Positions 5,043-54,939 of a stretch of 64,000 nt of DNA are shown piece after piece. The stretch lies in assembly GCF_030269685.1 (NCBI RefSeq), contig NZ_BSTT01000003.1, forward strand, positions 186,001-250,000. Direction: 5' to 3'. Within the stretch, counting starts at the first letter, position 1. Every line of letters begins with the position of its first letter. The position numbers and the translations under genes are program-made. This stretch comes from Actinomycetospora sp. NBRC 106378. Lineage in GTDB: Bacteria > Actinomycetota > Actinomycetes > Mycobacteriales > Pseudonocardiaceae. The notes under the pieces were generated by a model. That model saw only the letters and a list, made by a program, of their open reading frames with translations, was not told the origin of the DNA and did no database searches.

Positions 5043-5335
5043 GCCACCGGCGGCAGCCGCCGGAGGATCTCCTCGAGCATCCCGGTGTGCTGGTCGAGCG
5101 TCGCCGAGTGCTCGGCGAGCGTCGCGGTGTGCTGGTCGAGCGTCGCCGAGTGCTCGGCGAGCGTCGCGGTGTGCCGGTCGAGCGTCGCGGTGTGCCGGGC
5201 GAGCGTGACCTTCTGCTCGTCCAGTGTCGTCTGCACCTCGAGGACCGAGTCGGACAGCGCGGTGATGTCCTCGCGCAGGGAGACGTACTGCCCCTCCAGG
5301 CGGTCGACGCGGGGAGCGAGGTCGGGCTCGGTCAT
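5039..5335 (-). CDS. Small coiled-coil protein with heptad repeats
   Basis: A 98-residue acidic protein with no signal or membrane segment. After [20 protein letters not shown] it continues as one coiled coil whose second half is a near-perfect 7-residue repeat: units of the form LD(Q/R)HTAT and LAEHSAT alternate, about seven in all (around residues 45-85). The DNA shows this as 21-bp/42-bp direct repeats (5085-5205). Heptads with Leu at one position and Ala/His at others suggest oligomerisation. The frame extends upstream, but ATG 5335 has TATCCT 6 nt before it. It converges on rarA with overlapping stops. Function unknown. Confidence 0.65.
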
Positions 5336-9543: not shown

Positions 9544-11174
9544 CCCGGGGATCCGAACGGCCCCGCCTGGTCCCCATGTCGACCTCGTCCGGGGCCGACC
9601 GCGAGCACCCGACGTCGGGTGGCCCGGGCGCCGAGCACCGGATCCCGCGGCGCAGCCGCGGGCTGCGCCACCCGGGCGCCGAGAGCGCGCCCACCCGTCG
9701 TCGGGAATGGGAGACCCCCACCACGGCCCTCTCGGCTCCCGGGACCGACGAGCCCGACGCCGTGACCGACACCCTGGCCCGCCGGGGGGCGAACCCGCCC
9801 GAGGTGCCCTCCCGGGTCGCCCTGCCCGAGCCGCCGCGCCACCGGACCGGCCCGGCCGAGCAGCGCACCCGTCCCGTCCCCGCGCGCCCCGAGCGCGCGG
9901 CGTGGGCCCCGGCCGACCCCACGACGCCGACCCCTGCCGGTGGCGCGGCACGCCGGTCCGCGCCCGCCGCACGACGTCCCGACGACGACCTCGACGTGCT
10001 CGGCGGGCTCGGCGCGCCGCGGTCGGAGGAGCCCGCCGACGACCGCCCCGCGGGCCGCCGCCGGATGGTGTGGCCGATCGTGGCCGCGGTGCTCGTCCTC
10101 GCGCTCGCCGGCGGCGCCTTCTTCGCCCGCGACCTGTGGGGCGTGGTGTTCCCGCCCGACTTCGACGGCCCCGGGTCCGGCCACGTCGTCGTCCAGGTGG
10201 CGGACGGGGACTCGACCCGCGACATCGGGGAGTCCCTGGTGACGGCCGGCGTGGTGGCCTCGGCGCGCGGCTTCGGCCAGGCCGCCGAGGACGATCCCCG
10301 CGGGCGCGGCATCCAGCCCGGCTACTACGACATGGCGCGGCAGATGTCGGCCGCCGGGGCCGTCGGCCGCATGCTCGACCCGGCCTCGCGCCTGGGTCGG
10401 CTCGAGGTCCGGGGCGGCACGCAGCTCGACGACACCGCAGGCGTCGGCAACGCGCGGGTGCCGGGCGTGCTGTCGCTGATCTCCGAGGCCACCTGCGTCG
10501 TCGAGGACTCGGGGCAACGCCGCTGCACGTCCGTCGACGACCTGCGCCGCGTCATGGCCACCACCGACCCCGCTCAGCTCGGCGTGCCGGACTGGGCGCT
10601 CGACGGCGTCCGGAGGGCGCTGCCGGAGCGGCGCCTGGAGGGCCTCGTGGCGCCCGGCACCTACGACGTGCGCCCCGGCGCGGACGCCGCGTCGGCCCTG
10701 ACGACGGTGGTGCGGACGTCGGCCGAGACGCTGGAGGCGGCCGGGCTGGTGACGAAGGCCGCGGCCAACGACGTCACGCCCTACCAGGCGCTGATCGTGG
10801 GCTCGATCGCCGAGCGCGAGGGCATCGAGTCGGACTTCCGGCGGATCACGCGGGTGGTCTACAACCGGCTGCCGATCCCGATGCGACTGCAGATGGACTC
10901 GACGATCAACTATCCCCTCGACCGGCAGACGCTTCTGACCACGCCGGTCGACCGCGCCGCGCCCGGCCCGTACAACACCTACCTCAACTTCGGGCTGCCG
11001 CCGACCCCGATCGGCGCGGTGTCGACCCCGGCGCTGACGGCGGCGCTGAGCCCCGAGGTGGGCGGCTGGGTTTACTTCGTGAAGTGCGAGAAGGACGGCG
11101 CCTCCTGCTTCGCGGTATCGCCCGAGGAGCACGACGCGAACCGGCGGCTCGCCCAGGCCCGCGGGGTCTACTGA
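9540..11174 (+). CDS. mltG: Endolytic murein transglycosylase MltG
   Basis: A 544-residue inner-membrane lytic transglycosylase that cuts nascent peptidoglycan strands. The first 170 residues are cytoplasmic, Pro/Arg-rich and probably disordered. One transmembrane helix follows (about 175-195, VWPIVAAVLVLALAGGAFF), then the extracytoplasmic YceG/MltG domain with a LysM-like N-part (VVQVADGDSTRDIGESLV) and the catalytic segment SIAEREGIESDFRRI, whose Glu is the expected catalytic residue. QMDSTINY and PYNTY are typical family motifs. Start: GTG 9540 overlaps the ruvX stop; an ATG at 9576 is possible. The stop overlaps the aroE start (TGATG). Confidence 0.93.
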   Translation: MTRGSERPRLVPMSTSSGADREHPTSGGPGAEHRIPRRSRGLRHPGAESAPTRRREWETPTTALSAPGTDEPDAVTDTLARRGANPPEVPSRVALPEPPRHRTGPAEQRTRPVPARPERAAWAPADPTTPTPAGGAARRSAPAARRPDDDLDVLGGLGAPRSEEPADDRPAGRRRMVWPIVAAVLVLALAGGAFFARDLWGVVFPPDFDGPGSGHVVVQVADGDSTRDIGESLVTAGVVASARGFGQAAEDDPRGRGIQPGYYDMARQMSAAGAVGRMLDPASRLGRLEVRGGTQLDDTAGVGNARVPGVLSLISEATCVVEDSGQRRCTSVDDLRRVMATTDPAQLGVPDWALDGVRRALPERRLEGLVAPGTYDVRPGADAASALTTVVRTSAETLEAAGLVTKAAANDVTPYQALIVGSIAEREGIESDFRRITRVVYNRLPIPMRLQMDSTINYPLDRQTLLTTPVDRAAPGPYNTYLNFGLPPTPIGAVSTPALTAALSPEVGGWVYFVKCEKDGASCFAVSPEEHDANRRLAQARGVY

Positions 11175-12034
11175 TGGCCGGGCCGCGTCGCGCCGCGGTC
11201 CTCGGCTCGCCGGTCGCGCACTCCCTCTCGCCCGTGCTGCACGCAGCCGCGTACGAGGCGCTCGGCCTGCACGGCTGGACCTACGAGCGGCGGGAGTGCA
11301 CGGCCGACGACCTGCCCGGCCTGGTCGGCGGGCTCGACGCGGCCTGGGTCGGGCTCTCGGTGACGATGCCCGGGAAGCGGGCCGCGCTCGCGTACGCCAC
11401 CTCGGCGTCCACCCGGGCGCGGCGCCTCGGTGTCGCCAACACGCTCGTCCGCACCGACGCCGGGTGGTCGGCCGACTGCACGGACGTCGACGGGATCGCG
11501 GGGGCCCTGCGCGGCGCGGGGATCGCCGACCCCGTCGGCTCGCAGGACGTCGTGGTGCTCGGGGCCGGGGCCACGGCGTCCGCCGCGGTCGGGGCGCTCG
11601 ACGCGCTCGGGACCGGGGACGTCCAGCTCGTGGTCCGCGATCCCGCCCGGGCCGCGGAGACCACGGCGGTGGTCGACGCGTACGGGATGCGGGGCCTCGT
11701 GCGGACCTTCGACGGCCTCGACGAGGTCGACCTGTCCAGTACGACGGCACTGGTGAACACCACGCCGGCCGGTGCGGTCGACGCCGTGACGGCGGACCGC
11801 CTGGTGGACGGGCTGCCCGCGCACGCCGTCGTCCTCGACGCGATCTACCACCCGTGGCCCACCCCGCTCGCGGCCGCGGCCGAGCGGCGGGGCCTCGCCG
11901 TCGCGACCGGACTGGACATGCTGCTCCACCAGGCCTTCGGGCAGGTCGAGCAGTTCACGGGGTGCAGCGCGCCCCGCCGGGAGATGCACGCGGCGCTCGT
12001 CCGGGCGACCGGGTTCGACGTCCGTCCGCCGTAG
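11174..12034 (+). CDS. aroE: Shikimate 5-dehydrogenase
   Basis: A 286-residue enzyme that reduces 3-dehydroshikimate to shikimate with NADPH. Seen: the substrate-binding GSPVAHSLSP (11-20), the catalytic lysine in TMPGKRAA (K68), VANT (87-90), the catalytic aspartate in DCTDVDG (D104), and the dinucleotide motif VLGAGATASA. ATG 11174 overlaps the mltG stop. A NADP-selective NRT motif is not obvious: the segment after strand 2 reads VVRDPARAAET, still compatible with NADP(H). With aroC, aroK and aroB downstream it supplies chorismate. Confidence 0.93.
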   Translation: MAGPRRAAVLGSPVAHSLSPVLHAAAYEALGLHGWTYERRECTADDLPGLVGGLDAAWVGLSVTMPGKRAALAYATSASTRARRLGVANTLVRTDAGWSADCTDVDGIAGALRGAGIADPVGSQDVVVLGAGATASAAVGALDALGTGDVQLVVRDPARAAETTAVVDAYGMRGLVRTFDGLDEVDLSSTTALVNTTPAGAVDAVTADRLVDGLPAHAVVLDAIYHPWPTPLAAAAERRGLAVATGLDMLLHQAFGQVEQFTGCSAPRREMHAALVRATGFDVRPP

Positions 12035-43669: not shown

Positions 43670-44148
43670 GTGCCGACTCGCCGGTCGTCGTCCCGCCGGA
43701 GGGCCTGGAGCTCGGCCCCGTCGAGCTGGAGGTCCGCCCGCGCCGGATCCGCTGGGTCGCGTGGGTGCTCGCCGTCCTGCTGTTCGCGTTCTTCGCCACC
43801 GGCGCCCTGCTGGTCTACGTCCAGTCCGCGGGCTTCAACTTCCGCCCCGCCGACCAGGTCGCGATGGTGGTCCTCGGGGCGATCCTCGCGGGCTGCGCGC
43901 TGCTGTTCACCCGGCCCCGCCTCCGGGCGGGCTCCGGCGGGGTCGAGGTCCGCGCGACGATCCTCACGCGGCGCGTCGCGTGGGACGACGTCGTCGGCGT
44001 CAGCTTCCCCGACGGCGCCCAGTTCGCCCGGATCGACCTGCCCGACGACGAGTACCTCGTGGTCTCCGCGATCCAGGCCGTCGACCGGGAGCACGCCGTG
44101 CAGGCGGTCCGGCGACTGCGGGAGCTGCGCGCGAAGTACGACGGATGA
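43666..44148 (+). CDS. Membrane protein with bacterial PH-like domain
   Basis: A 160-residue protein. Two transmembrane helices (about 28-50, RWVAWVLAVLLFAFFATGAL; about 65-83, VAMVVLGAILAGCALLFT) are followed by a short PH-like beta domain (GGVEVRATILTRRVAWDDVVGVSFPDGAQFARIDLPDDEYLVV) and a helix (VDREHAVQAVRRLRELRAKY). A PH-domain gene after ribH is conserved in actinobacteria. Function unknown. Coupled to ribH and pyrD by 4-bp overlaps. Confidence 0.78.
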   Translation: MSADSPVVVPPEGLELGPVELEVRPRRIRWVAWVLAVLLFAFFATGALLVYVQSAGFNFRPADQVAMVVLGAILAGCALLFTRPRLRAGSGGVEVRATILTRRVAWDDVVGVSFPDGAQFARIDLPDDEYLVVSAIQAVDREHAVQAVRRLRELRAKYDG

Positions 44149-45170
44149 CCCTCTACGAGAACCTGTTCCGCCACGTCGCCGTCCGCGTCCCCGCCGAGCG
44201 GACCCACCGCATCGGACTCCGCGCCCTCGCCGCGGCGACCCCCGTGATCCCCGAGCGCACGCCCGATCCGTCGCTGGCCGTCACCGCCATGGGGCTGGAG
44301 TTCCCGTCGCCGCTCGGGGTGGCCGCGGGCTACGACAAGGACGCCGAGGGCGTGCGTGGGCTCGCCCGCCTCGGCTTCGGCGCCGTCGAGATCGGCACCG
44401 TCACCGCCCGCCCGCAGCCGGGCAACCCCCGTCCGCGGCTCTTCCGTCTCCCCGACGACCGCGCCCTGGTCAACCGCATGGGCTTCAACAACGCCGGCGC
44501 CGACGTCGTGGCGGAGCGGCTCGCCGCCCTGCGGGCCGCAGGTCCCCTGGGGACCGTCCTCGGGGTCAACATCGGCAAGTCCAAGGCCGCGTCCGGCCCG
44601 GAGCGGACGGTCGCCGACTACCGCTACTCGGCCCGCACCCTCGGCCCCCACGCCGACTACGTCGTCGTCAACGTCTCCTCCCCGAACACGCCGGGGCTGC
44701 GGGACCTCCAGGGGGTGGACGCCCTCGAGCCGCTGCTCACCGCCGTCCGCGACGAGATCGGCGCCACGCCGCTGCTGGTCAAGATCACCGCCGATCTCGA
44801 CGGCGCCGGTGTCGACGCGGTCGCCGACCTCGCGGTCGCCGCCGGCCTCGACGGCATCGTCGCCACCAACACCACCGTGGCACGCACGGGTCTGGTCACC
44901 GACCCCGCCGTCGTCGACGCCGCGGGCGCCGGCGGCCTGTCCGGCGCCCCACTGGTCGAGCCCGCGCGCGCGATCCTCGACCGCCTCGTGGCCCGCGTCG
45001 GTGGCCGCCTGACGATCGTCTCCGTCGGCGGGATCGCCGACGCCGCGGAGGCCCGCCGGCGCCTCGAGGCCGGGGCGACGCTCGTGCAGTCCTACACCGG
45101 CTTCGTCTACGGCGGCCCGGCCTGGCCGTCCCGCGTGAACGCCGAACTCGCCCGGTCGCCGCACCCCTGA
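44145..45170 (+). CDS. pyrD: Dihydroorotate dehydrogenase (quinone), class 2
   Basis: A 341-residue FMN enzyme oxidising dihydroorotate, coupled to the menaquinone pool. The N-terminal helix that contacts the membrane (MTLYENLFRHVAVRVPAERTHR) defines class 2. Seen: GVAAGYDKDAEGVRGLARLG, VEIGTVTARPQPGNPRPR, the catalytic serine in VVNVSSPNTPGLRDLQ, and IVSVGGIADAAEARRRLEAGA. It is separated from the pyr operon by 15 kb. Array A begins about 40 bp after its stop. Confidence 0.95.
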   Translation: MTLYENLFRHVAVRVPAERTHRIGLRALAAATPVIPERTPDPSLAVTAMGLEFPSPLGVAAGYDKDAEGVRGLARLGFGAVEIGTVTARPQPGNPRPRLFRLPDDRALVNRMGFNNAGADVVAERLAALRAAGPLGTVLGVNIGKSKAASGPERTVADYRYSARTLGPHADYVVVNVSSPNTPGLRDLQGVDALEPLLTAVRDEIGATPLLVKITADLDGAGVDAVADLAVAAGLDGIVATNTTVARTGLVTDPAVVDAAGAGGLSGAPLVEPARAILDRLVARVGGRLTIVSVGGIADAAEARRRLEAGATLVQSYTGFVYGGPAWPSRVNAELARSPHP

Positions 45171-45208
45171 CTCCACAACCTCGGGCACGGCACGGCACGG
45201 TCCTGCTG

Positions 45209-45552
45209 ACTTCTCCGCGTGGCGCACACACTCCGGCCGGGCCGCGACACCCTTCCGTGGACTCCAGCGCGTCAAGCACACACCGGCCCGTCCTCGGCGC
45301 AGTCGTGGTGATCCCGACGCGTCGCGCACACTTCCCGCGGGTCCTCGGCACGCTTCTGGGGACTCCAGCGCGTCGCGCACACATCGCGGGTTCCGTCCGC
45401 ATGGCCTGCGCGCGGCGCCGCCGATGTGTGCGCGACGCGCAGGGATCGGTGCCACCGAGCGCTCGGGGCGGTGGAGTGTGTGCGCCACGCGCAGGGGTCG
45501 GCGACACCGTGCACTCCGCCCCGTCACGTGTGTGCGCCCCGCGCAGGGGTGC
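45209..45552. repeat. Array A: seven about-52-bp units with central orientation switch
   Basis: Four units have the core on the minus strand (plus-strand GCACAC at 45224, 45276, 45326, 45377) and three on the plus strand (GTGTGCG at 45426, 45478, 45530). Steps are 50-52 bp, and the outward-reading consensus is GTGTGCGNNNCGCGY. Spacers are only partly similar. The array fills most of the 592-bp pyrD-HAD gap. The 52-bp period is not a multiple of three, so the open frames across it are not genes. Confidence 0.85.
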
Positions 45553-45630
45553 TGCCAGTCCTCGGGCGTGCCGGCCTCGACGTCGAGCTCGGGCGCCCGA
45601 GACGTCCACCACCCCCACCCCACCCGCGGA

Positions 45631-45669
45631 CTGTCCACCATGTCCCCGGCACAACCTGTCCACCATGTC
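45631..45669. repeat. 14-bp direct repeat upstream of the HAD gene
   Basis: CTGTCCACCATGTC occurs at 45631-45644 and 45656-45669, 25 bp apart. It lies 94 bp before the HAD gene and may be an operator pair. Confidence 0.6.
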
Positions 45670-45762
45670 TCGGGTATTGACACGTCCCGCCGAGCAGCAA
45701 CGGGCCCGACACATGACGTCTCGTCGCGCCGACCCTCGGCCCACCCGGCACGATGGTCCGCC

Positions 45763-46455
45763 GTGACCGCCCCGCAGATCGCTCCCGCTCGTCGTCCGAA
45801 GGTCGTGCTGTTCGACCTCTTCGAGACCTGCCTGCAGCTCGAAGGCCTGCGTCCGCGGTTCGTCGCCCTCGGCCGACCGGGGCACGAGCTGGAACTGTTC
45901 TTCGCCCGCCTGCTGCACCAGGGCATGGCGATGACGCTGGCGGGCGAGGCGCCCGCGTTCCGCACCGTCGCCACCGACATGCTGCGCCGCACCAGCGGTC
46001 GGGACCTCGACGACGACCAGGTCGCCTCCGTCCTCGACGGCTTCCGCGAGCTCCCGGCGCACGACGACGTCCGCGCCGCCTTCACGCTGCTCCGCGACGC
46101 GGGGATCCCCGCCTACGGCTTCACGCACGGGTCGGCCGCGACCGCGAGTGCGGCGCTGGAGAACGCCGGCGTCCGGGACCTGCTCGCCGACGTCTTCTCC
46201 TGCGAGGAGATCGCCTCGTTCAAGCCGCCGCGCCGGGTGTACGACTTCGCGGTGCAGCGGGTGGGGGGCGAGCCGGCGCGCACCGCGCTGGTCGCGGTGC
46301 ACTCGTGGGACGTGCACGGCGCCGTCTCGGCGGGCCTGCTGGGCGGGTACTGCGAGCGTCTCGAGGGCCGGGTCCCCGACGCCGTACTCCGGCCGCACGT
46401 CGTGGCCGAGAGCCTGGACGACGTCGTCGCCGGGCTCCTCGCCCTGCCCGAGTAG
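45763..46455 (+). CDS. HAD-superfamily hydrolase, haloacid-dehalogenase type II-like
   Basis: A 230-residue HAD hydrolase. The nucleophile motif is VVLFDLFETCLQ (D18); the position two residues on is Phe, as in 2-haloacid dehalogenases and unlike DxD phosphatases. YGFTHGSAATASAAL holds the motif II threonine region, SFKPPRRVYDFAVQRVG the motif III lysine, and VAVHSWDVHGAVSAGLLGGY the motif IV acidic residue with a helical cap between. Substrate unknown. Start GTG 45763 is chosen because everything upstream is repeat sequence. First gene of the module bracketed by arrays A and B. Confidence 0.72.
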   Translation: MTAPQIAPARRPKVVLFDLFETCLQLEGLRPRFVALGRPGHELELFFARLLHQGMAMTLAGEAPAFRTVATDMLRRTSGRDLDDDQVASVLDGFRELPAHDDVRAAFTLLRDAGIPAYGFTHGSAATASAALENAGVRDLLADVFSCEEIASFKPPRRVYDFAVQRVGGEPARTALVAVHSWDVHGAVSAGLLGGYCERLEGRVPDAVLRPHVVAESLDDVVAGLLALPE

Positions 46456-46518
46456 CGCCCCGGGTACGTTCGACGACCAGCCGCGACCACCACCGCGACC
46501 CCGACGGAGGCCCCACCC

Positions 46519-46986
46519 GTGACCACCGAGCCGTCCACCACCCCGACCGGACTCACCCGTCGTCGTGCCCTGTGCGGCCTCGTCGTCGCCCTGGCCGCAC
46601 CCGCCGCGCTCGCGGCCTGCTCGTCCGGGAGCGAGGCACCCGCATCGTCCGGCGGCGCCGGTGGCGGCTCGGCGGGCACGACCACCGCCGCTCCGGCGGG
46701 CGGCACCCCCGTGTCCCGGATCCCGGTCGGCGGCGGCGTGGTCGTGGACGGCCCGAACGGGCCGGTGGTGCTCACCCAGCCCCAGGCCGGCGTCATCAAG
46801 GCCTTCGACGCGGCCTGCCCGCACCAGGGCACGACCGTCGACCCGCCCGAGGGCGGCACGATCACCTGTCCGAACCACGGCAGCCAGTTCGACGCCACGT
46901 CCGGCGCCCTGATGAAGGGCCCGGCCGAGAGCGGGCTGACCCCCGTCGCGACGACCGTCGCGAACGGGCAGGTCCAGTTCGTCTAG
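46519..46986 (+). CDS. Tat-exported Rieske [2Fe-2S] lipoprotein
   Basis: A 155-residue exported protein. The twin-arginine motif (TRRRAL, 13-18) is followed by a hydrophobic stretch and lipobox LAAC (31-34), so it should be folded with its cluster in the cytoplasm, exported by Tat and lipid-anchored outside. A Ser/Gly/Thr-rich linker (35-60) leads to a Rieske domain with AACPHQGTTV and TCPNHGSQFD, which supply the two Cys and two His cluster ligands. A small stand-alone electron carrier; partner unknown. It lies 63 bp after the HAD gene and 5 bp before the SNF2 gene. Confidence 0.88.
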   Translation: MTTEPSTTPTGLTRRRALCGLVVALAAPAALAACSSGSEAPASSGGAGGGSAGTTTAAPAGGTPVSRIPVGGGVVVDGPNGPVVLTQPQAGVIKAFDAACPHQGTTVDPPEGGTITCPNHGSQFDATSGALMKGPAESGLTPVATTVANGQVQFV

Positions 46987-46991
46987 CGACG

Positions 46992-49900
46992 ATGCTCGCG
47001 CTGCACGCCGCGTGGTCACCCGGCCGGGGGCTCTGCTTCTGGGCCGAGGATCCGGCACGCGTGGCGGGCGGCTCCCGCAGCCGGGCCCGAGGCGCCCGGC
47101 CGCACCCGTTCGCCGCGGACCACGAGCGGCTGTGGGCCGTCGCGGCCGCGCTCGGGGCCACCGGTGGTGAGGGCCAGGCCGTGCTGCACCTGCCCTCCAC
47201 CGCCGGCCCGTCCGGGGCCACGCGGGAGCCGGTGCCCTCCGACGCCGCCACCGTGTCGGCCGCGCTCGCGCCGTGGACGGTGCCGGTCCTCGAGCTGGAC
47301 GCCGGCGTCCTGCTGCGCTCCGAACCGCTGCCGGGGGAGGGCGGGGAGTTCACGGTCCTGCGGGCGCTGGGCCGGCTCGCCGCGGACCTGGTCACCCGCG
47401 GGCGGGTCCTCCCGGCCCCGGCACCCGACGACGACACGCCGCTCGGCTGGCGTCCGGTGCTGCAGGGTCCGGACCTCGTCGCCGCCGACGCCTTCGCCGC
47501 CGCGCTGCCCCCCGCCGTCCGGGCCGAGGCCCTCGACGGCCGACCGGTGGCCGACGGCGTCGGCCCCGACCCGGCGGAGCTGGTCACCGAGGCCCTGACC
47601 GCGCTCGTCGACGCCGAGGCCCGCCACCGGCTCCGGTCGGAGCCGGTCCCGCCGGCCCTGCTGCGGGCCGCCGCGACGGGCGAGCTGGAACCGGGGCTCG
47701 CCCGGTGGGAGGTCGTCGGCGCACCGCACGCCGGCCCCGCCCGCGGCACGTTCCGGCTCACCGAGATCGCGGTCGACGACCTCGGGCACGCGGTCGACGG
47801 GGAGCCCCGGTTCTGGCTGGAGTTCTCGCTGCAGTCCGCCCAGGACGCGAGCCTGCGTGTCACCGCCGAGTCGATCTGGCGCGACGCCGGGTCGCTGCGG
47901 CGCTGGCTCGACGACCCCAGCGAGATGCTGCTCGCCGAACTCGGGCGCGCCGCCACGATCTACCCCGAGCTCACCGACGCGCTGCGGGTGCCCCGGCCGA
48001 CGGGGATGGAGCTCGACCGCGCGGGCACCCACCACTTCCTGCTCCACGTCGCGGCTCCGCTCGACCGCGCCGGGTTCGGGGTCCTGCTGCCCAGCTGGTG
48101 GTCCGAGCCCGCCCGTCTGGGGATCACCGCGAACGCGACGGGTGGTGCCGGCCCCGAGGGCGTCGTCGCCCTCCGCGGGCGGCTGCGCAAGGAGGAGCTC
48201 GTCGACTTCTCGTGGAAGCTCGCGGTCGACGGCGAGACGCTCTCCGACGACGAGATGCGGGCACTGGTGCACGCCAAGGCACCGCTGGTGTTCCTGCGCG
48301 GCCGCTGGGTCGCCGTCGATCCCGACCGCCTGCGTGCCGGCCTCGAGTTCCTCGACCGCGCGCCCGCCGAGGGCACCGTCGGCGACGTCCTGACCCTGCA
48401 CTCCGCCTACCACGACGACCTGCCGCCGGAGTGGGCCGCGCCGCTGCCCGTCGAGGACGTCACGGCGGGCGGCTCGCTCGGCGCGCTGCTCTCGGGAGCC
48501 GCCGACGCCCACCTCGAACTGCTCGACGACCCGCCCGCCCTCGAGGCGACCCTGCGGCCCTACCAGCGCCGCGGGGTCTCGTGGCTCGCGTTCCTCTCCG
48601 GGCTGCGCGTCGGCGGGGTCCTCGCCGACGACATGGGCCTGGGGAAGACGCTGCAGGTCCTCGCGCTGGAGGCCCACGAGCGCGCGGACCCGCTGCCCCC
48701 GACCCTGCTCGTCGCGCCCACCTCCGTCGTCGGGAACTGGCAGCGGGAGGCGGCGCGGTTCACGCCCGGCCTGCGGGTCCTCGTGCATCACGGTGCGGGC
48801 CGGACGACGGGTGACCTCACGGCCGTCCTCGCGTCCGCGGACCTCGTCGTGACGTCCTACGGGACGCTGACCCGCGACGTCGCGGAGCTGTCCCGCCACG
48901 CCTTCCACCGGCTCGTGCTCGACGAGGCGCAGCTGGTGAAGAACAACCGGTCGCGGGCCGCGCGGGCCGTGCGCACGATCGACGCGCAGCACCGGCTGGC
49001 CCTCACCGGCACGCCGGTGGAGAACCGGCTGGCCGAGCTGTGGTCGATCATGGACGCGGTCAACCCCGGCCTGCTCGGCACCGTCACGGCGTTCCGTGAC
49101 CGCTACGCCGTGCCGATCGAACGCCACGGCCGCTCCGACGTCGCGAAGCGGCTCCAGGGTGCGGTGCGCCCGTTCCTGCTGCGGCGGGTGAAGACCGACC
49201 GGAGCGTGGTCGACGACCTGCCCGACAAGATCGAGACCGTCGAGCGGTGCGGGCTCACCGCCGAGCAGGCGTCGCTGTACCAGGTGGTGGTCGACGAGAT
49301 GACCGAGACGCTGTCGGGGCTGGAGACGGCAGGGCGCGAGGGCATCGAGCGGCGCGGGAAGGTGCTCGCGGCGCTGACGAAGCTGAAGCAGGTGTGCGAC
49401 CACCCGGCCCTGCTGCTCCACGACGGGTCCGCGCTCGCGCGACGCTCCGGCAAGCTCGCGCGGGTCGAGGAGATCGTGGCCGAGATCCTCGCGGCGGGGG
49501 AGAAGGCGCTGCTGTTCACCCAGTTCACGGAATTCGGGGACGCGCTCGCGCCGCACCTGGCGCGCCGGTTCGGGGTCGAGGTGCTGTGGCTGCACGGCGG
49601 GACCTCGCGACGTGCCCGGGACACCATGGTCGAGGCGTTCCAGGCCGACGACGGGAGCGGCCCGCCGCTGTTCCTGCTCTCGCTCAAGGCGGGCGGCACC
49701 GGGCTCACCCTGACCGCCGCCCAGCACGTGATCCACCTCGACCGCTGGTGGAACCCCGCCGTCGAGGACCAGGCCACGGACCGCGCCTTCCGGATCGGGC
49801 AGAAGCGCACGGTGCAGGTCCGCAAGCTCGTCTGCGGCGGCACCGTCGAGGAGCGGATCGACGACCTCATCGAGGGCAAGCGCGCCCTCGCCGGTCAGGT

Positions 49901-50045
49901 GATCGGTGACGGCGGCGACGACCCGGACTGGCTCACCGGCCTCTCGACCGACGAGCTCCGCCGCATGGTCGCCCTCGGACCGGGCGCGAGCACCGGCGAC
50001 GAGGACGAGGTCGACGACGAGCTGGACGACGACGATGCCGCCTAG
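46992..50045 (+). CDS. SNF2-family DEAD/DEAH helicase-like ATPase
   Basis: A 1017-residue double-stranded-DNA translocase. The first 450 residues form the SNF2 helicase-associated N-terminal domain seen in prokaryotic members. The SNF2 N-lobe follows: LADDMGLGKTLQVLAL (Walker A, about 545-560), APTSVVGNWQREAARF, LVLDEAQLVKNNRSRAARA (DEAQ box, about 640-655) and ALTGTPVENRLAELWS. The C-lobe has LFTQFTEFGDAL, LSLKAGGTGLTLTAAQHVI and HLDRWWNPAVEDQA, then TDRAFRIGQ. It has an acidic Asp/Glu tail. The start ATG 46992 overlaps nothing and lies 5 bp after the Rieske gene; the last 11 bp overlap the SWIM gene. Probable DNA repair or chromatin-remodelling-like role. Confidence 0.92.
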   Translation: MLALHAAWSPGRGLCFWAEDPARVAGGSRSRARGARPHPFAADHERLWAVAAALGATGGEGQAVLHLPSTAGPSGATREPVPSDAATVSAALAPWTVPVLELDAGVLLRSEPLPGEGGEFTVLRALGRLAADLVTRGRVLPAPAPDDDTPLGWRPVLQGPDLVAADAFAAALPPAVRAEALDGRPVADGVGPDPAELVTEALTALVDAEARHRLRSEPVPPALLRAAATGELEPGLARWEVVGAPHAGPARGTFRLTEIAVDDLGHAVDGEPRFWLEFSLQSAQDASLRVTAESIWRDAGSLRRWLDDPSEMLLAELGRAATIYPELTDALRVPRPTGMELDRAGTHHFLLHVAAPLDRAGFGVLLPSWWSEPARLGITANATGGAGPEGVVALRGRLRKEELVDFSWKLAVDGETLSDDEMRALVHAKAPLVFLRGRWVAVDPDRLRAGLEFLDRAPAEGTVGDVLTLHSAYHDDLPPEWAAPLPVEDVTAGGSLGALLSGAADAHLELLDDPPALEATLRPYQRRGVSWLAFLSGLRVGGVLADDMGLGKTLQVLALEAHERADPLPPTLLVAPTSVVGNWQREAARFTPGLRVLVHHGAGRTTGDLTAVLASADLVVTSYGTLTRDVAELSRHAFHRLVLDEAQLVKNNRSRAARAVRTIDAQHRLALTGTPVENRLAELWSIMDAVNPGLLGTVTAFRDRYAVPIERHGRSDVAKRLQGAVRPFLLRRVKTDRSVVDDLPDKIETVERCGLTAEQASLYQVVVDEMTETLSGLETAGREGIERRGKVLAALTKLKQVCDHPALLLHDGSALARRSGKLARVEEIVAEILAAGEKALLFTQFTEFGDALAPHLARRFGVEVLWLHGGTSRRARDTMVEAFQADDGSGPPLFLLSLKAGGTGLTLTAAQHVIHLDRWWNPAVEDQATDRAFRIGQKRTVQVRKLVCGGTVEERIDDLIEGKRALAGQVIGDGGDDPDWLTGLSTDELRRMVALGPGASTGDEDEVDDELDDDDAA

Positions 50046-50880
50046 ACGCCGCCGGCCGACGGAGCCGTTCCGGGAGAAGTTCCCCGAGCCGGGGCCCGAC
50101 CGGTTCGAGGGCTACGGGAAACGGATCGCCGTCGAGGACGGGATCGCCGCGAGGAGCCGCCGTGGCGCGATCGGGGAGTCCTGGTGGTCGGGCCGCTTCC
50201 TCGCGGTCCTGGAGAAGCTCGGGGTCGGTGGCCGCCTGGACCGCGGGAAGACCTACGCCCGGGCCGGGCAGGTGGTCGACCTCGCGATCGACCCCGGTGA
50301 GGTCGTCGCGACCGTGCAGGGCTCCCGGTCCGAGCCCTACCGCGCACGGATCGGCATCACGACGTTCGCCGACGAGGCCTGGGAGGCGGTCGAGGGGGCG
50401 TTCGCCGCCGACTCCTGGTACGCCGCCTCCCTGCTCGGCGGCACGGTTCCCGACGACCTCGAGGAGGTCTTCGCCCGCGTCGGACTCTCGCTCTTCCCGA
50501 CGGGGGCCCGCGAGATGCCGATGGACTGCTCCTGCCCGGACTGGTCGGTGCCGTGCAAGCACCTCGCGGCCGTCGCCTACCTCGTCGCGGAGCGCTTCGA
50601 CGACGACCCGTTCCTCATCCTGCGCTGGCGTGGACGCGACCGGACGACCCTGCTCGCGGGCATCCGCGAGCGGCGCGACGACACCGGCCCCGCCGTCACG
50701 CCGCTGGCGCAGGTGGTCGACCGCTTCTGGTCCGCCGGCGGTCCGCTGCCCGACCTCGGGCGACCCGTCCCGGGCAACTCCGAGGAGCTGCTCGACCAGA
50801 TGCCGCCGCTGGGCGTGGCCGTCGACGGCACCGACGCCCGCGAGGCGCTCCGACCGTTCTACCGGCGATTCGGGTTGTGA
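50035..50880 (+). CDS. SWIM zinc-finger protein
   Basis: A 281-residue protein. The zinc-binding SWIM motif (CxCxnCxH) reads MDCSCPDWSVPCKHLAAVAY (about 163-182). The N-terminal half (REKFPEPGPDRFEGYGKRI.. GESWWSGRFLAVLEKLG) is typical of SWIM proteins encoded next to SNF2 helicases. It overlaps the SNF2 gene by 11 bp, implying coupled translation and joint function, probably as a DNA- or protein-binding partner of the ATPase. Pairing of these two families is widespread in actinobacteria, but their role is not established. Confidence 0.85.
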   Translation: MPPRRRRPTEPFREKFPEPGPDRFEGYGKRIAVEDGIAARSRRGAIGESWWSGRFLAVLEKLGVGGRLDRGKTYARAGQVVDLAIDPGEVVATVQGSRSEPYRARIGITTFADEAWEAVEGAFAADSWYAASLLGGTVPDDLEEVFARVGLSLFPTGAREMPMDCSCPDWSVPCKHLAAVAYLVAERFDDDPFLILRWRGRDRTTLLAGIRERRDDTGPAVTPLAQVVDRFWSAGGPLPDLGRPVPGNSEELLDQMPPLGVAVDGTDAREALRPFYRRFGL

Positions 50881-50885
50881 CGCGG

Positions 50886-50891
50886 TAGAAC
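50886..50891 (+). promoter_or_regulatory. Candidate -10 box of the PIG-L deacetylase gene
   Basis: TAGAAC ends 7 nt before the GTG at 50899, predicting separate, leaderless transcription even though the gap after the SWIM gene is only 18 bp. Confidence 0.35.
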
Positions 50892-50898
50892 GGAGCCC

Positions 50899-51624
50899 GT
50901 GGCTCGCATCCTCATGATCGTCGCGCACCCCGACGACATCGACTTCGGCAGCGGCGGCTCGGTGGCGAAGTGGGTCGCCGAGGGCGACACCGTCGACTAC
51001 TGCATCGTGACCGACGGGGACGCGGGCGGGTTCGACGAGGCCGTCGGACGCGTCGAGATGGCCGAGCTGCGCCGCAAGGAGCAGCGCGCCGCCGCCGACG
51101 TCTACGGCGTCGGGGAGATCGACTGGCTCGGCTACCCCGACGGCAGGCTCTACGTCACCCACGAGCTGCGCCGCGACCTCTCGCGCGTGATCCGCCGGCG
51201 CCGTCCCGACCGCTGCGTCGTGCCCTCGCCCACCCGCAACCTGCGCAGCACCTACGGAAGCCACCCCGACCACATCGCCGCCGGCGAGGCGTCGATGTGC
51301 GCGATCTACCCCGACGCGCGCAACCCGTTCGCCCACCCCGAGCTGCTCGCCGACGAGGGCCTCGAGGCCTGGACCGTGCCGGAGACCTGGATCGCGAACC
51401 CCGGCGAGGGGGCCGACCTCTACCTCGACATCACCGACACCCTCGACCTCAAGATCGAGGCCCTGCGCGCCCACGAGTCGCAAACCGCCCACATGACCGA
51501 CCTCGCCGAGCGCATGCAGATGTGGGGCTACGCCCAGGCCAAGGCCGCGGGCTGGTGCACCGACGGCACTCCCGCCGACGAGCGCCGCTACGCCGAGGGC
51601 TTCCTCGTCCTCGACACGAAGTAG
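50899..51624 (+). CDS. PIG-L-family deacetylase (MshB/Mca-like)
   Basis: A 241-residue zinc-dependent N-acetylglucosamine deacetylase-fold protein. The zinc site is intact: IVAHPDDIDFGSGG (H10, D13) and YGSHPDHIAAGEA (second His, with the adjacent catalytic/general-base region). Family members act in mycothiol biosynthesis (MshB), on mycothiol S-conjugates (Mca) or on other GlcNAc derivatives; at 241 residues this is shorter than MshB or Mca (about 290-300), so a different substrate is likely. Start GTG 50899. Last gene of the module; array B begins 42 bp later. Confidence 0.82.
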   Translation: MARILMIVAHPDDIDFGSGGSVAKWVAEGDTVDYCIVTDGDAGGFDEAVGRVEMAELRRKEQRAAADVYGVGEIDWLGYPDGRLYVTHELRRDLSRVIRRRRPDRCVVPSPTRNLRSTYGSHPDHIAAGEASMCAIYPDARNPFAHPELLADEGLEAWTVPETWIANPGEGADLYLDITDTLDLKIEALRAHESQTAHMTDLAERMQMWGYAQAKAAGWCTDGTPADERRYAEGFLVLDTK

Positions 51625-51666
51625 CCCTTCCCGACGCCGGGTCGGTGCGGGTGTGCGGTGCCTTGT

Positions 51667-52076
51667 GCGTCCCGCGCACAGTCTCGCCGGTCCGGCGAGA
51701 ACCTCGGGTGACCCCGACGCGTCCCGCACACACTCTGGCCGGTCCGGCGGGAAGCTCGGGGGACTCTGACGCGTCCCGCACACACTCCGGCCGGTCCGGC
51801 GAGAACCTCGGGCGACCCCGACGCGTCCCGCACACACTCTGGCCGGTCCGGGGAGAACCTCGCGTGACGACGACGCGTCCCGCACACACCTGGACCCGGA
51901 GTGTGCGTCACGCGTCGGGTTCGGCCGATCTTCTTGCTCGGCTGCCTGGAGTGGGTGCGTCCCGCGTCGGGTTCGGCCGATCTTCTTGCTCGGCTACCCG
52001 GAATGTGTGCGTCCCGCGTCGGGTTCGGCTCACCTTCTCGCTCCGCTGCCTGGACTGTGTGCGTCCCGCGCAGAGG
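51667..52076. repeat. Array B: nine 52-bp units with central orientation switch
   Basis: Five units have the core on the minus strand (plus-strand GCGTCCCGC at 51667, 51719, 51771, 51823, 51875) and four on the plus strand (GTGTGCG or GGGTGCG at 51901, 51953, 52005, 52057). Every step within each half is exactly 52 bp. The outward consensus is GTGTGCGNNNCGCGY. Left spacers share CCGGTCCGGCGAGAACCTCG; right spacers share GGTTCGGC and TTCTTGCTCGG. The core matches array A. It fills most of the 565-bp gap between the PIG-L gene and marR. Not coding (52 is not a multiple of 3). Confidence 0.9.
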
Positions 52077-52176
52077 TCACCCGCACCCGACGGAGACGTC
52101 CGGACGCGAACACCACGACTCGGAGCGCTCCGGCCCCGGATTCACCGAACCGCCCCTCCCGCGAGGGCGCTGCACC

Positions 52177-52182
52177 TAGCGT
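52177..52182 (+). promoter_or_regulatory. Candidate -10 box of marR
   Basis: TAGCGT, identical to the rarA box, ends 7 nt before the GTG at 52190; predicts a leaderless transcript. Confidence 0.45.
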
Positions 52183-52189
52183 TCGTCCC

Positions 52190-52750
52190 GTGGCCGACGA
52201 ACCCGTGCCGAAGTTCCCGCCGTGGGGTGCCGAGCTCGTGGCGGAGAACGCCGAGTTCGCGTCGTCGGTGCTCGACCACCTCGTGCCGGCGGTCGTCCAG
52301 ATGCACCGCGCCGACGCGGCCCGACTCGGGCTCGATCCGACGGAACTGGCGATCCTCGAGGTCCTCCGGGTCGTCGACCCGCTGTCGATCTCCGCGCTCG
52401 CGGGACGGGTCTCGCTCAGTCACGCCGCGACCGCGCGGGCCGTCGGGCGGCTGGAGGAGCGGGAGTGGGTCGCCCGGAACCACGACCCGCACGACCGGCG
52501 GGGGTGGCTCGTCTTCCTGTGCCCGGAGGCCCGGACCATGCTGCAGGACGCCCGGGCCGGCGTCCGGCACCAGCTGGCCGAGGCGGCCGACGACCTGGCC
52601 CCGGAGCGGCTGCTCGCGACACTCCACGCGCTGGTCCAGGTGACCGACCGCGTGATGCGCTCGGCCCGCGACCTGGCCGACCAGCGGTGGCAGGAGATCC
52701 AGTACCGGCGGTGGCAGGAGCGTCGGCGCACGCCCGGCGGCGAACTCTGA
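52190..52750 (+). CDS. MarR-family transcriptional regulator
   Basis: A 186-residue winged helix-turn-helix protein. The recognition region reads LDPTELAILEVLRVVDPLSI, SALAGRVSLSHAATARAVGR and LEEREWVARNHDPHDRRGWL, the last containing the wing DxHDRR motif diagnostic of MarR proteins; long terminal helices make the dimer. Target and ligand unknown; the GACAC cluster right after it (52752-52865) could hold its operators. It is 134 bp before uvrC. Start GTG 52190. Confidence 0.88.
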   Translation: MADEPVPKFPPWGAELVAENAEFASSVLDHLVPAVVQMHRADAARLGLDPTELAILEVLRVVDPLSISALAGRVSLSHAATARAVGRLEEREWVARNHDPHDRRGWLVFLCPEARTMLQDARAGVRHQLAEAADDLAPERLLATLHALVQVTDRVMRSARDLADQRWQEIQYRRWQERRRTPGGEL

Positions 52751-52751
52751 C

Positions 52752-52865
52752 GACACGATCCGACGCAAGCCGACACACCGGTTGGCAAGTGTCTCGCGGC
52801 GGGACACGCCGAACGACACGCCGAGACCACCCGCTTGGGTGCACGCCGACACGCTGAGGAGACAC
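52752..52865. promoter_or_regulatory. Cluster of GACAC motifs upstream of uvrC
   Basis: GACAC occurs at 52752, 52772, 52803, 52815, 52848 and 52861, and its complement GTGTC at 52789. Three copies extend to GACACGCC. GACACACCGG and AAGTGTC form an inverted pair (52772-52793). The cluster covers nearly the whole marR-uvrC gap and ends at the candidate uvrC -10 box TACTCT (52869-52874). It probably binds a regulator. Confidence 0.5.
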
Positions 52866-52884
52866 GCCTACTCTGGTGCTCGCC

Positions 52885-54939
52885 ATGGCCGATCCGAGCA
52901 CCTACCGCCCCGCCCCGGGAACCATCCCGGAGGCGCCTGGCGTCTACCGGTTCTCCGACGCGAGCGGCCGCGTGATCTACGTCGGGAAGGCCAAGAGCCT
53001 CCGCAGCCGCCTCAACTCCTACTTCGCCGACCTCTCCGGTCTGCACCCCCGGACGCGGCGCATGGTCACCACCGCCGCGGCGGTGCAGTGGACCGTCGTG
53101 GGCACCGAGGTCGAGGCGCTCCAGCTCGAGTACAACTGGATCAAGGAGTACGACCCGCAGTTCAACGTCCGCTACCGCGACGACAAGACCTACCCGGTCC
53201 TCGCGGTGACGCTGAACGAGGAGTACCCGCAGCTCAAGGTGTATCGCGGGCCCCGCCGCAAGGGCGTGCGCTACTTCGGGCCCTACGCCCACGCGTGGGC
53301 GATCCGCGAGACGCTGAAGCTGCTGACCCGGGTGTTCCCGGCACGGGTGTGCTCGCCCGGGGTCTTCAAGCGCCACGGGCAGATCGGCCGGCCGTGCATG
53401 TTCGGCTACATCGGCAAGTGCGCCGCGCCGTGCGTGGGGCGGGTCTCCGCCGAGGAGCACCGGCAGATCGTGCTGGACTTCTGCGACTTCCTCGCCGGCC
53501 ACACCGACCAGCTGATCACCCGCATCGAGAAAGAGATGCAGGCCGCATCGGCGGAGATGGACTTCGAGCGGGCGGCGCGGCTGCGCGACGACGCCGGGGC
53601 CCTCAAGCGCGTCGTCGAGAAGCAGGCCGTGGTGCTCGGCGACGGGACCGACGCCGACGTCGTGGCGTTCGCGCTCGACCCGCTGGAGGCGGCGGTCCAG
53701 ATCTTCCACGTCCGCGGCGGCCGCGTGCGCGGCCAGCGGGGCTGGGTGGTGGAGCGGGGCGAGGAGGACTCGCTGGAGGTCCTCACCGGCCAGTTCCTCT
53801 CCCAGTTCTACGGCGAGCAGGCGGCGCTGGCGGGCTCGGCCGACGACGCCGTGCAGCCGGTCCCGCGGGAGGTGCTCGTCCCGGCGCTGCCGGAGGACCA
53901 CACGGCGCTCGCGCAGTGGCTGACCGAGCTGCGGGGCAGCCGGGTGAGCCTGCGCGTCGCGCAGCGCGGCGACAAGCGCACCCTCGCCGAGACCGTCGAG
54001 CGCAACGCCAAGGAGGCGCTCACCCAGCACAAGCTGAAGCGGGCGGGCGACCTGACGGCGCGCAGCGCGGCCCTGGAGGAGATCCAGGAGTACCTGGAGC
54101 TCGACTCGGCGCCGCTGCGCATCGAGTGCACCGACGTCAGCCACGTCCAGGGGTCCGACGTGGTGGCGAGCCTCGTGGTGTTCGAGGACGGGCTGCCGAA
54201 GAAGTCGGACTACCGGAGGTTCGCGATCCGCGGTGGCGCGGAGGGCGGCGACGTCGCGGCCATCGCCGAGGTGGTCCGCCGCCGTTTCCAGCGCTACCTG
54301 CGCGAGACCGCCGAGGACGCCGAGCACGACCCGACGACCACGTCCTGCTCCGGGGAGACCAGCGACGGGGCCCCGGCGTCGCGCGAGATCGACCCGGCGG
54401 AGATCGACGGACCGCTGCCCGGGATCGACCCGACGACGGGGCGCCCGCGCAAGTTCTCCTACGCGCCGAACCTGCTCGTCGTCGACGGCGGGGCGCCGCA
54501 GGTGGCGGCCGCGCAGGAGGTCCTCTCCGAGCTCGGCATCACCGACGTCGCGGTGTGCGGGCTCGCGAAGCGCCTGGAGGAGGTGTGGCTGCCCGGCGAC
54601 GAGATGCCGGCGATCCTGCCGCGCACCTCCGAGGCGCTCTACCTGCTCCAGCGCGTGCGCGACGAGGCGCACCGCTTCGCGATCACCTACCACCGGCAGA
54701 AGCGCTCGGCGCGGATGACGACCTCGGAGCTCGACGGGGTGCCCGGGCTCGGCTCGACGCGCAAGACCGCGCTCATCAAGCACTTCGGGTCGGTCAAGAA
54801 GCTGCGGGCGGCGACCGTCGAGGAGATCACCGAGGTGCCCGGCGTCGGGAAGCGCACCGCGGAAGCGGTGCTCCACGCACTGAACACGGGAGACGCAGCG
54901 CAGCGGAGCTCGACCACGGACAAGGGGGAGGCGTCGTGA
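52885..54939 (+). CDS. uvrC: Excinuclease ABC subunit C
   Basis: A 684-residue nuclease making both incisions in nucleotide excision repair. Seen: GIY-YIG domain ([20 protein letters not shown]; about 15-95), UVR domain ([20 protein letters not shown]), the RNase H-like C-terminal nuclease ([33 protein letters not shown]), and the tandem helix-hairpin-helix end ([32 protein letters not shown]). Start ATG 52885 is preferred to GTG 52876 by promoter spacing. The final residues ([16 protein letters not shown]) derive from a repeat shared with the nusB start. Overlaps rapZ by 4 bp. Confidence 0.95.
54888..54915. repeat. 28-bp junction repeat (copy at uvrC end)
   Basis: 27 of 28 bp identical to 21014-21041. 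Read in the same frame, both copies encode AQRSST. Here it extends the UvrC C-terminus just before the overlap with rapZ. Confidence 0.75.

Follow-up and report, generated by a model that had tools for sequence, protein, structure and literature searches.

Mirror-image, phase-locked repeat arrays in one Actinomycetospora clade and a neighboring MarR-family protein as their candidate binder

Results

A repeat array with mirror-image halves lies upstream of marR

We analyzed a 64-kb stretch of an Actinomycetospora genome (hereafter the window) in which a PIG-L deacetylase gene is followed by a MarR-family gene and by a gene that we take to be uvrC, a name assigned from its sequence, its neighbors and general knowledge rather than from a family search. 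Between the first two stands array B, composed of nine 52-bp units, five with their cores on the minus strand at the left and four with their cores on the plus strand at the right, so that every core is directed outward (Table 1). A first-pass annotation had described nine such units at this place from the letters of the window, with an exact 52-bp step within each half and a single flip of orientation near 51890. When the cores were located individually, this description was borne out: the step holds in both halves, and the orientation switches across a 13-bp centre. The common core that it proposed is exact in seven units (GTGTGCGNNNCGCG), and the other two depart from it by one and two mismatches. 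Each core is pseudo-palindromic and asymmetric, reading GTGTGCG-BSV-CGC and then G or A, and the outermost left copy sits within the near-palindrome TTGTGCGTCCCGCGCACA. Tandem Repeats Finder scored the two halves at 349 and 263. Array A follows the same plan, with spacings of 50-52 bp within its halves. About 120 bp separate the end of the final core of array B from the start of marR, and a search for a sigma-70-type promoter found none. Elsewhere, the window holds a perfect 14-bp tandem repeat of 5.4 copies (1648-1723) and a 42-bp tandem repeat of 3.2 copies (5073-5206).

Table 1. Features at and near array B, in window coordinates
Feature	Position	Strand	Remarks
Array A	45216..45543	.	Same plan as array B, 6 kb leftward
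Array A cores	45216, 45268 (1 mismatch), 45318, 45369; 45426, 45478, 45530	minus; then plus	
PIG-L deacetylase gene	50899..51624	+	Ends left of array B; synteny anchor
Array B, left half	51663..51887	-	Five cores at 52-bp steps
Left-half cores	51666-51679 (2 mismatches), 51718-51731, 51770-51783, 51822-51835, 51874-51887	minus	
Array B, centre	51888..51900	.	13 bp; core orientation switches here
Array B, right half	51901..52070	+	Four cores at 52-bp steps
Right-half cores	51901-51914, 51953-51966 (1 mismatch), 52005-52018, 52057-52070	plus	
MarR-family gene	52190..52750	+	GTG start; candidate core binder; between array B and uvrC
uvrC (presumed)	52876..54939	+	Right-hand synteny anchor; slow-evolving control

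The arrays form a genome-wide family with fixed polarity and period

With up to 1 mismatch, the window contains 21 cores, against a mean of 15.0 in shuffled versions, 13 of 100 of which reach 21; since this count does not exceed the shuffles, significance rests on clustering, phasing and the genome-wide count. The exact core occurs 90 times in the 6.3-Mb assembly, compared with 5 occurrences of the reversed pattern, and 71 of the 90 are grouped in 19 clusters with at least two members. About 20 mirror-image arrays, array B among them, are dispersed between the genes of this soil bacterium. Arrays within one genome resemble each other, as do B and the array at locus L067 (83% over 123 bp). Two arrays on one contig (C2), 237 kb apart, are near-identical at 93% (L063 2055-2329 and L065 1932-2206). 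The pair also has flanking gene fragments in common, which indicates a segmental copy and not transposition; from reading alone, these fragments resemble part of clpP and the clgR end.

We compared array loci across species, referring to genomes by number: G000 is the window's own genome, G014 is A. chiangmaiensis, G016 A. soli, G009 strain TBRC 11914 and G015 A. endophytica. Loci of G014, G016 and G009 come from a scan of genome contigs, and a few cut through an array; those of G006 are 20 sites among the matches listed. After cores matching both strands had been removed, every minus core lay to the left of every plus core in 63 of 67 two-stranded arrays from five species, and nine further arrays had cores on a single strand. 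A half may hold up to eight units. Four species have a period of 52 bp, one has 48 bp and one about 50 bp. Of the 38 same-strand gaps in G000, 32 measure exactly 52 bp, and among the others are near-multiples of the period, such as decay of cores might leave; the 48-bp period accounts for 65 of 77 gaps in G006. The first-pass annotation had reasoned that 52 bp, about five helical turns, would place all cores on one face of the DNA, an argument that lacks generality, given the periods of 48 bp and about 50 bp in relatives. Within the fetched loci, the first base of the core's middle triplet is never A (0/84 in G000, 0/137 in G006), and the second is G or C in 83/84 and 136/137.

Spacers of the same half are about 70% identical to one another. 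The first-pass annotation had noted that spacers differ between halves, and this is right: identity between opposite-half spacers is 43% in G000 and 40% in G006, where different arrays give 44% and 42%, and shuffled columns 33%. As opposite halves are no closer than different arrays, we rejected the idea that the halves were born from a recent inverted duplication; each half therefore seems to expand independently, and the outward polarity does not seem to be accounted for by a recent inverted copy. A CRISPR-like array was likewise rejected: the conserved repeat and regular spacing are alike, but here the same-half spacers are copies rather than unique sequences, and orientation flips.

Arrays are restricted to one clade among the genomes searched

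Searched for in the window's own genome and in 40 relatives, a pair of cores spaced by about 52 bp was found in four of the 41, all of the same genus. The contig scan located array stretches in Actinomycetospora (A. chiangmaiensis, A. soli, strain TBRC 11914 and A. endophytica); eight of its 44 stretches lay outside the genus with one match each and were excluded from array counts. Four of these eight (L100, L103, L115 and L118) hold three to five cores each, all on one strand. A relaxed pattern matched 10 of 297 genomes of the family, seven of which belong to one Actinomycetospora clade; the other three have a 24-bp repeat or single matches. The relaxed pattern had no match in ten sister-clade species (nine in the tree, and G003, absent from the trees and placed by PIG-L identity) or in G013, whose 59% complete assembly holds 5 cores, compared with 6 for the control. 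G002 is array-poor, with 5 core pairs. Among the genomes searched, arrays are restricted to one Actinomycetospora clade, within which their positions are often retained across species. The first-pass annotation had envisaged that the phasing might vanish in other copies; it recurs in this genome and in other species. A phage origin was rejected: a scan of viral contigs gave a single match in each of three contigs. Among the open-access articles listed, a body outside which most subscription journals fall, no title or opening of an abstract describes such arrays.

Arrays occupy intergenic junctions

Using a purpose-made codon-usage gene caller and omitting seven G009 arrays near locus ends, we found that arrays overlap a called gene in 0 of 20 cases in G000, 1 of 22 in G006 and 1 of 9 in G009; 49 of the 51 overlap none. 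The arrays lie between genes and not, as the first-pass annotation had allowed for related strains, only as decayed coding sequence. The flanking genes are convergent, tandem or divergent in 8, 10 and 2 cases in G000, in 7, 14 and 1 in G006 and in 4, 1 and 4 in G009. Taken together, G000 and G006 have 15 convergent against 3 divergent junctions (binomial p 0.0075), besides 24 tandem ones; array-free intergenic gaps of at least 120 bp in six loci comprise 2 convergent, 20 tandem and 3 divergent. G009 shows no gene-end bias, and the bias is therefore not general.

By inspection, array centres often contain other dispersed palindromic elements. Inverted repeats in 7 of 25 centres beat all 20 shuffles, which is suggestive only. 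Several unrelated families occur there (ATGATCACG..., CTTGTCGTG...CACGACAAG, GATCAGGGAGTC...GACTCCGTGATC), for example at L064 1949-2146, L101 6611-6803, L189 1954-2250 and L098 3226-3413, and the L076 centre has matches at tens of places in G002 among the matches listed. Simpler elements stand at some junctions of relatives. Near the pyrD and HAD gene ends, four sister-clade loci (L162, L163, L165, L169) carry hairpins of the form GTGAGTGA...CTATAG...TCACTCAC and variants, where the array clade has arrays or nothing. Simple palindromes (GTGAGGGGA...TCCCCTCAC; CATGTGAACGGAT...ATCCGTTCACATG) are found at the L073 junction (L191, L192, L193) and at the L076 junction of G009 (L209), where G000 holds arrays; at L073, the right-hand gene of G000 differs too.

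Arrays come in lineage dialects

Flanks and period define dialects of the array. Dialect I, in G000, G014, G016 and G009, has mostly CGCGCAGG-like flanks and the 52-bp period; dialect II, in G006, has a CGCAACG flank and the 48-bp period; G015 mixes CGCAACG and CGCAC at a period of about 50 bp. Copies of the dialect II core, GTGTGCGNNNCGCAAYR, number 189 in G006, 14 in G002 and 8 in G015; there is one in the sister-clade genome G010, and none in the four dialect I genomes or in the other ten genomes. Different dialects can occupy the same junction. At locus B, G000 and G014 carry dialect I, G006 carries dialect II and G015 the CGCAC form. At L076, the arrays of G000, G014 and G016 belong to dialect I and those of G002 and G006 to dialect II, and G009 has a simple hairpin there. 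At locus B of G009 (L161, about 10550-11400) there is a separate tandem repeat with GGTGCGCGGGCCGTCTCC and GAGTCGCTGCGCGTCGAGCGGATCTCC.

The adjacent MarR is fast-evolving around a conserved predicted recognition helix

The product of the gene next to array B matches PF01047 at 46.7 bits, against a Pfam cut-off of 24.6. Syntenic orthologs occur in G000, G014 (82% identity), G016 (63%), G009 (48%), G015 (47%) and G006 (43%), at E 1e-29 or better, and the genomes with an intact syntenic marR are exactly the six that are array-rich. Between PIG-L and uvrC in G002 there is no intact marR, only a C-terminal remnant; the same locus in G013 (59% complete) has neither marR nor array, and in five sister-clade species, which are without arrays, the MarR near the locus is more distant. 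The G002 remnant aligns with the tails of type II MarR proteins at scores of 66 (G015) and 60 (G006), against a best of 39 each in 300 shuffles, and with type I tails at 33 (G000), 42 (G014), 30 (G016) and 44 (G009). It also beats its own shuffles with two type I tails (42 vs 39 for G014, 44 vs 36 for G009), and its type II preference is therefore one of margin only.

MarR dN/dS is 0.39-0.86 in six comparisons, against 0.00-0.33 for eight neighbors, which could reflect relaxed constraint. Its best-conserved 13-residue window, LSHAATARAVGRL, is the predicted recognition helix, with 10 of 13 residues invariant compared with 36 of 191 overall; of 20,000 column shuffles, a procedure blind to correlation between neighbors, 6 attained such conservation. 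Twelve differences are fixed between types I and II, and the sole one within the helix window is residue 82, A in all four type I proteins and S in both of type II. A structural model of modest quality (mean pLDDT 74.8) places this helix at 78-90, a wing at 94-110 and a long C-terminal helix, arginine-rich near its end, at 138-180. The best 50 PDB matches found by Foldseek are MarR-type regulators by title, DNA-bound ones included, in line with a winged-helix fold. We infer that a conserved reading head with a fast-changing remainder would fit a conserved core with changing flanks and spacing.

MarR type follows array dialect against the species tree

Counting the G002 remnant, MarR type agrees with array dialect in 7 of 7 genomes, against the species tree. 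The MarR tree groups G006 with G015 (support 73/99, with a program warning of long branches). In topology tests, whose clade groups were chosen after inspecting a first MarR tree, MarR rejected the species clade of G000, G014, G016 and G006 (AU p 0.0039), and five neighbor proteins rejected both G006 with G015 (p 8e-5) and a single clade of G000, G014, G016 and G009 with G002 added (p 5e-7); they did not reject G002 with G006 (p 0.31). The best tree has three dialect changes, and independent switches number only two or three. With dialect labels shuffled, 74 and 59 of 500 draws show clustering at least as good, so that by itself the clustering of six labels proves little. MarR is a specific candidate for the binder, supported by correlated change, albeit over few independent events.

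Discussion

Array B is real, is repeated across one clade and falls outside the repeat families tested. The first-pass annotation had offered two readings, a multi-site protein-binding array or a pair of structured RNAs; judged from sequence comparison, the binding array appears the best reading, and structured RNA is not favored. We infer that the MarR encoded next to array B may bind the cores. Dimers of MarR would bind the cores of each unit, units would be laid out at a species-fixed period in two half-arrays directed outward from a centre, and dimers on successive units would form a regular protein-DNA cluster between genes. The long basic C-terminal helix of the modeled protein may help to set the period, array B may additionally control marR itself, and the arrays might insulate neighboring genes or organize the chromosome. 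We lean modestly towards this proposal as a whole, in which MarR dimers bind the cores, form regular clusters and control marR through array B.

In bacteria, dispersed palindromic repeats are commonly attributed to a RAYT transposase, and the arrays could be a REP/BIME-like family, spread and homogenized by recombination or by some transposase, with an incidental link to MarR. Like REPs, they are short, palindromic, multi-copy, lineage-specific and clustered in intergenic regions, in G000 and G006 often near gene ends, and arrays of one genome are alike. One account describes a similar gene-end preference for REPs (PMC3733652), which the convergent excess in G000 and G006 recalls and which is missing in G009; REPs are also described as insertion targets (PMC1525189), and other palindromes often lie in array centres here. 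Against this stand the phase-locking of units at 48-52 bp and their outward direction. The Y1 transposase domain (PF01797), the only transposase family searched, was found in 0 of 18 genomes of the genus by a search that was positive in 5 of 14 control genomes, and RAYT/REP membership was rejected accordingly. Inspection of the unit consensus (35 and 71 units) showed no GTAG or CGTC tag at core ends, although CGTC can arise within the core when the triplet is GGA. Incidental repeats would also leave the match between MarR type and dialect, and the conserved recognition helix, unexplained, and we regard this reading as rather unlikely.

We consider it improbable that the arrays are remnants of mobile elements whose inverted ends bind a transposase at several sites. 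The single flip of polarity, the outermost units that in several arrays are, by inspection, fuller palindromes (GTGTGCGNNNCGCRCAC) and the near-identical pair in G000 would suit such ends; however, that pair is a segmental copy, no clean empty site, boundary or definable target duplication was apparent at the two loci compared (A and L073), halves reach eight units, and positions are often kept between species. Slighter still is the chance that the arrays are 3'-end terminators or RNA hairpins at gene ends. Array B folds as a single long hairpin (z -9.9 on the plus strand, -5.0 on the minus) and, like 11 others of 35 arrays (those with at least 3 cores, both strands represented and under 650 bp), folds better than all 24 spacer-shuffled versions; simple hairpins stand at the same junctions in some relatives, and two terminator-like matches were found against 0.3 expected. 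Yet both strands fold (mean z -3.8/-4.2 in G000 and -5.4/-5.7 in G006 over the 35 arrays), because the cores mirror each other, and in 23 of the 35, shuffled spacers fold as well at least once, the shuffled blocks including centres that hold other hairpins. Moreover, sense-strand G.U pairs in 20 tandem-context arrays are more frequent in 10, fewer in 9 and tied in 1; 7 of the 51 arrays lie in divergent regions; and no Rfam family matched positions 44000-54000 up to E 1. Structured RNA was set aside as less likely on the Rfam, G.U and shuffle results, and an RNA function is not favored, though array B spacers pair across halves above chance.

The proposed MarR binding has partial parallels among known systems. 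In parS/ParB, matS/MatP and the dialects of DNA-uptake sequences, dispersed sites have lineage dialects matched to a DNA-binding protein. The dialect-bearing dispersed sites and matched candidate protein described here are similar; unlike those systems, the sites form arrays rather than standing singly, the polarity is mirror-image, and the candidate is of the MarR family. With MarR regulators such as MftR bound to operator DNA (8ylg) and ST1710 bound to promoter DNA (3gfi), the candidate shares a predicted winged-helix fold and candidate palindromic sites upstream of its own gene. It differs in its very fast evolution, in the long basic C-terminal helix of its model, and in the presence of about 20 arrays here, and of 180-189 dialect II cores in G006, rather than a few operators.

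Tentatively, and somewhat short of thinking it probable, we entertain a broader reading: a chromosome-wide system whose fast-evolving MarR and tens of mirror-image, phase-locked arrays would change dialect in concert in separate lineages, at least partly at the same junctions, and which would probably serve chromosome organization or insulation between genes and not the regulation of a few promoters. If true, this would parallel, in bacteria, the pairing of a rapidly evolving DNA-binding protein with target sites that co-evolve. In this genus the search found no member of the RAYT family, and what tracks the repeats is instead a protein of regulator type. Should MarR prove to be the binder, the clade would supply a naturally occurring set of matched protein-site pairs, one lineage of which has lost the protein and keeps few arrays; in this set the co-evolution of DNA recognition and spacing (52, about 50 and 48 bp) would be directly measurable.
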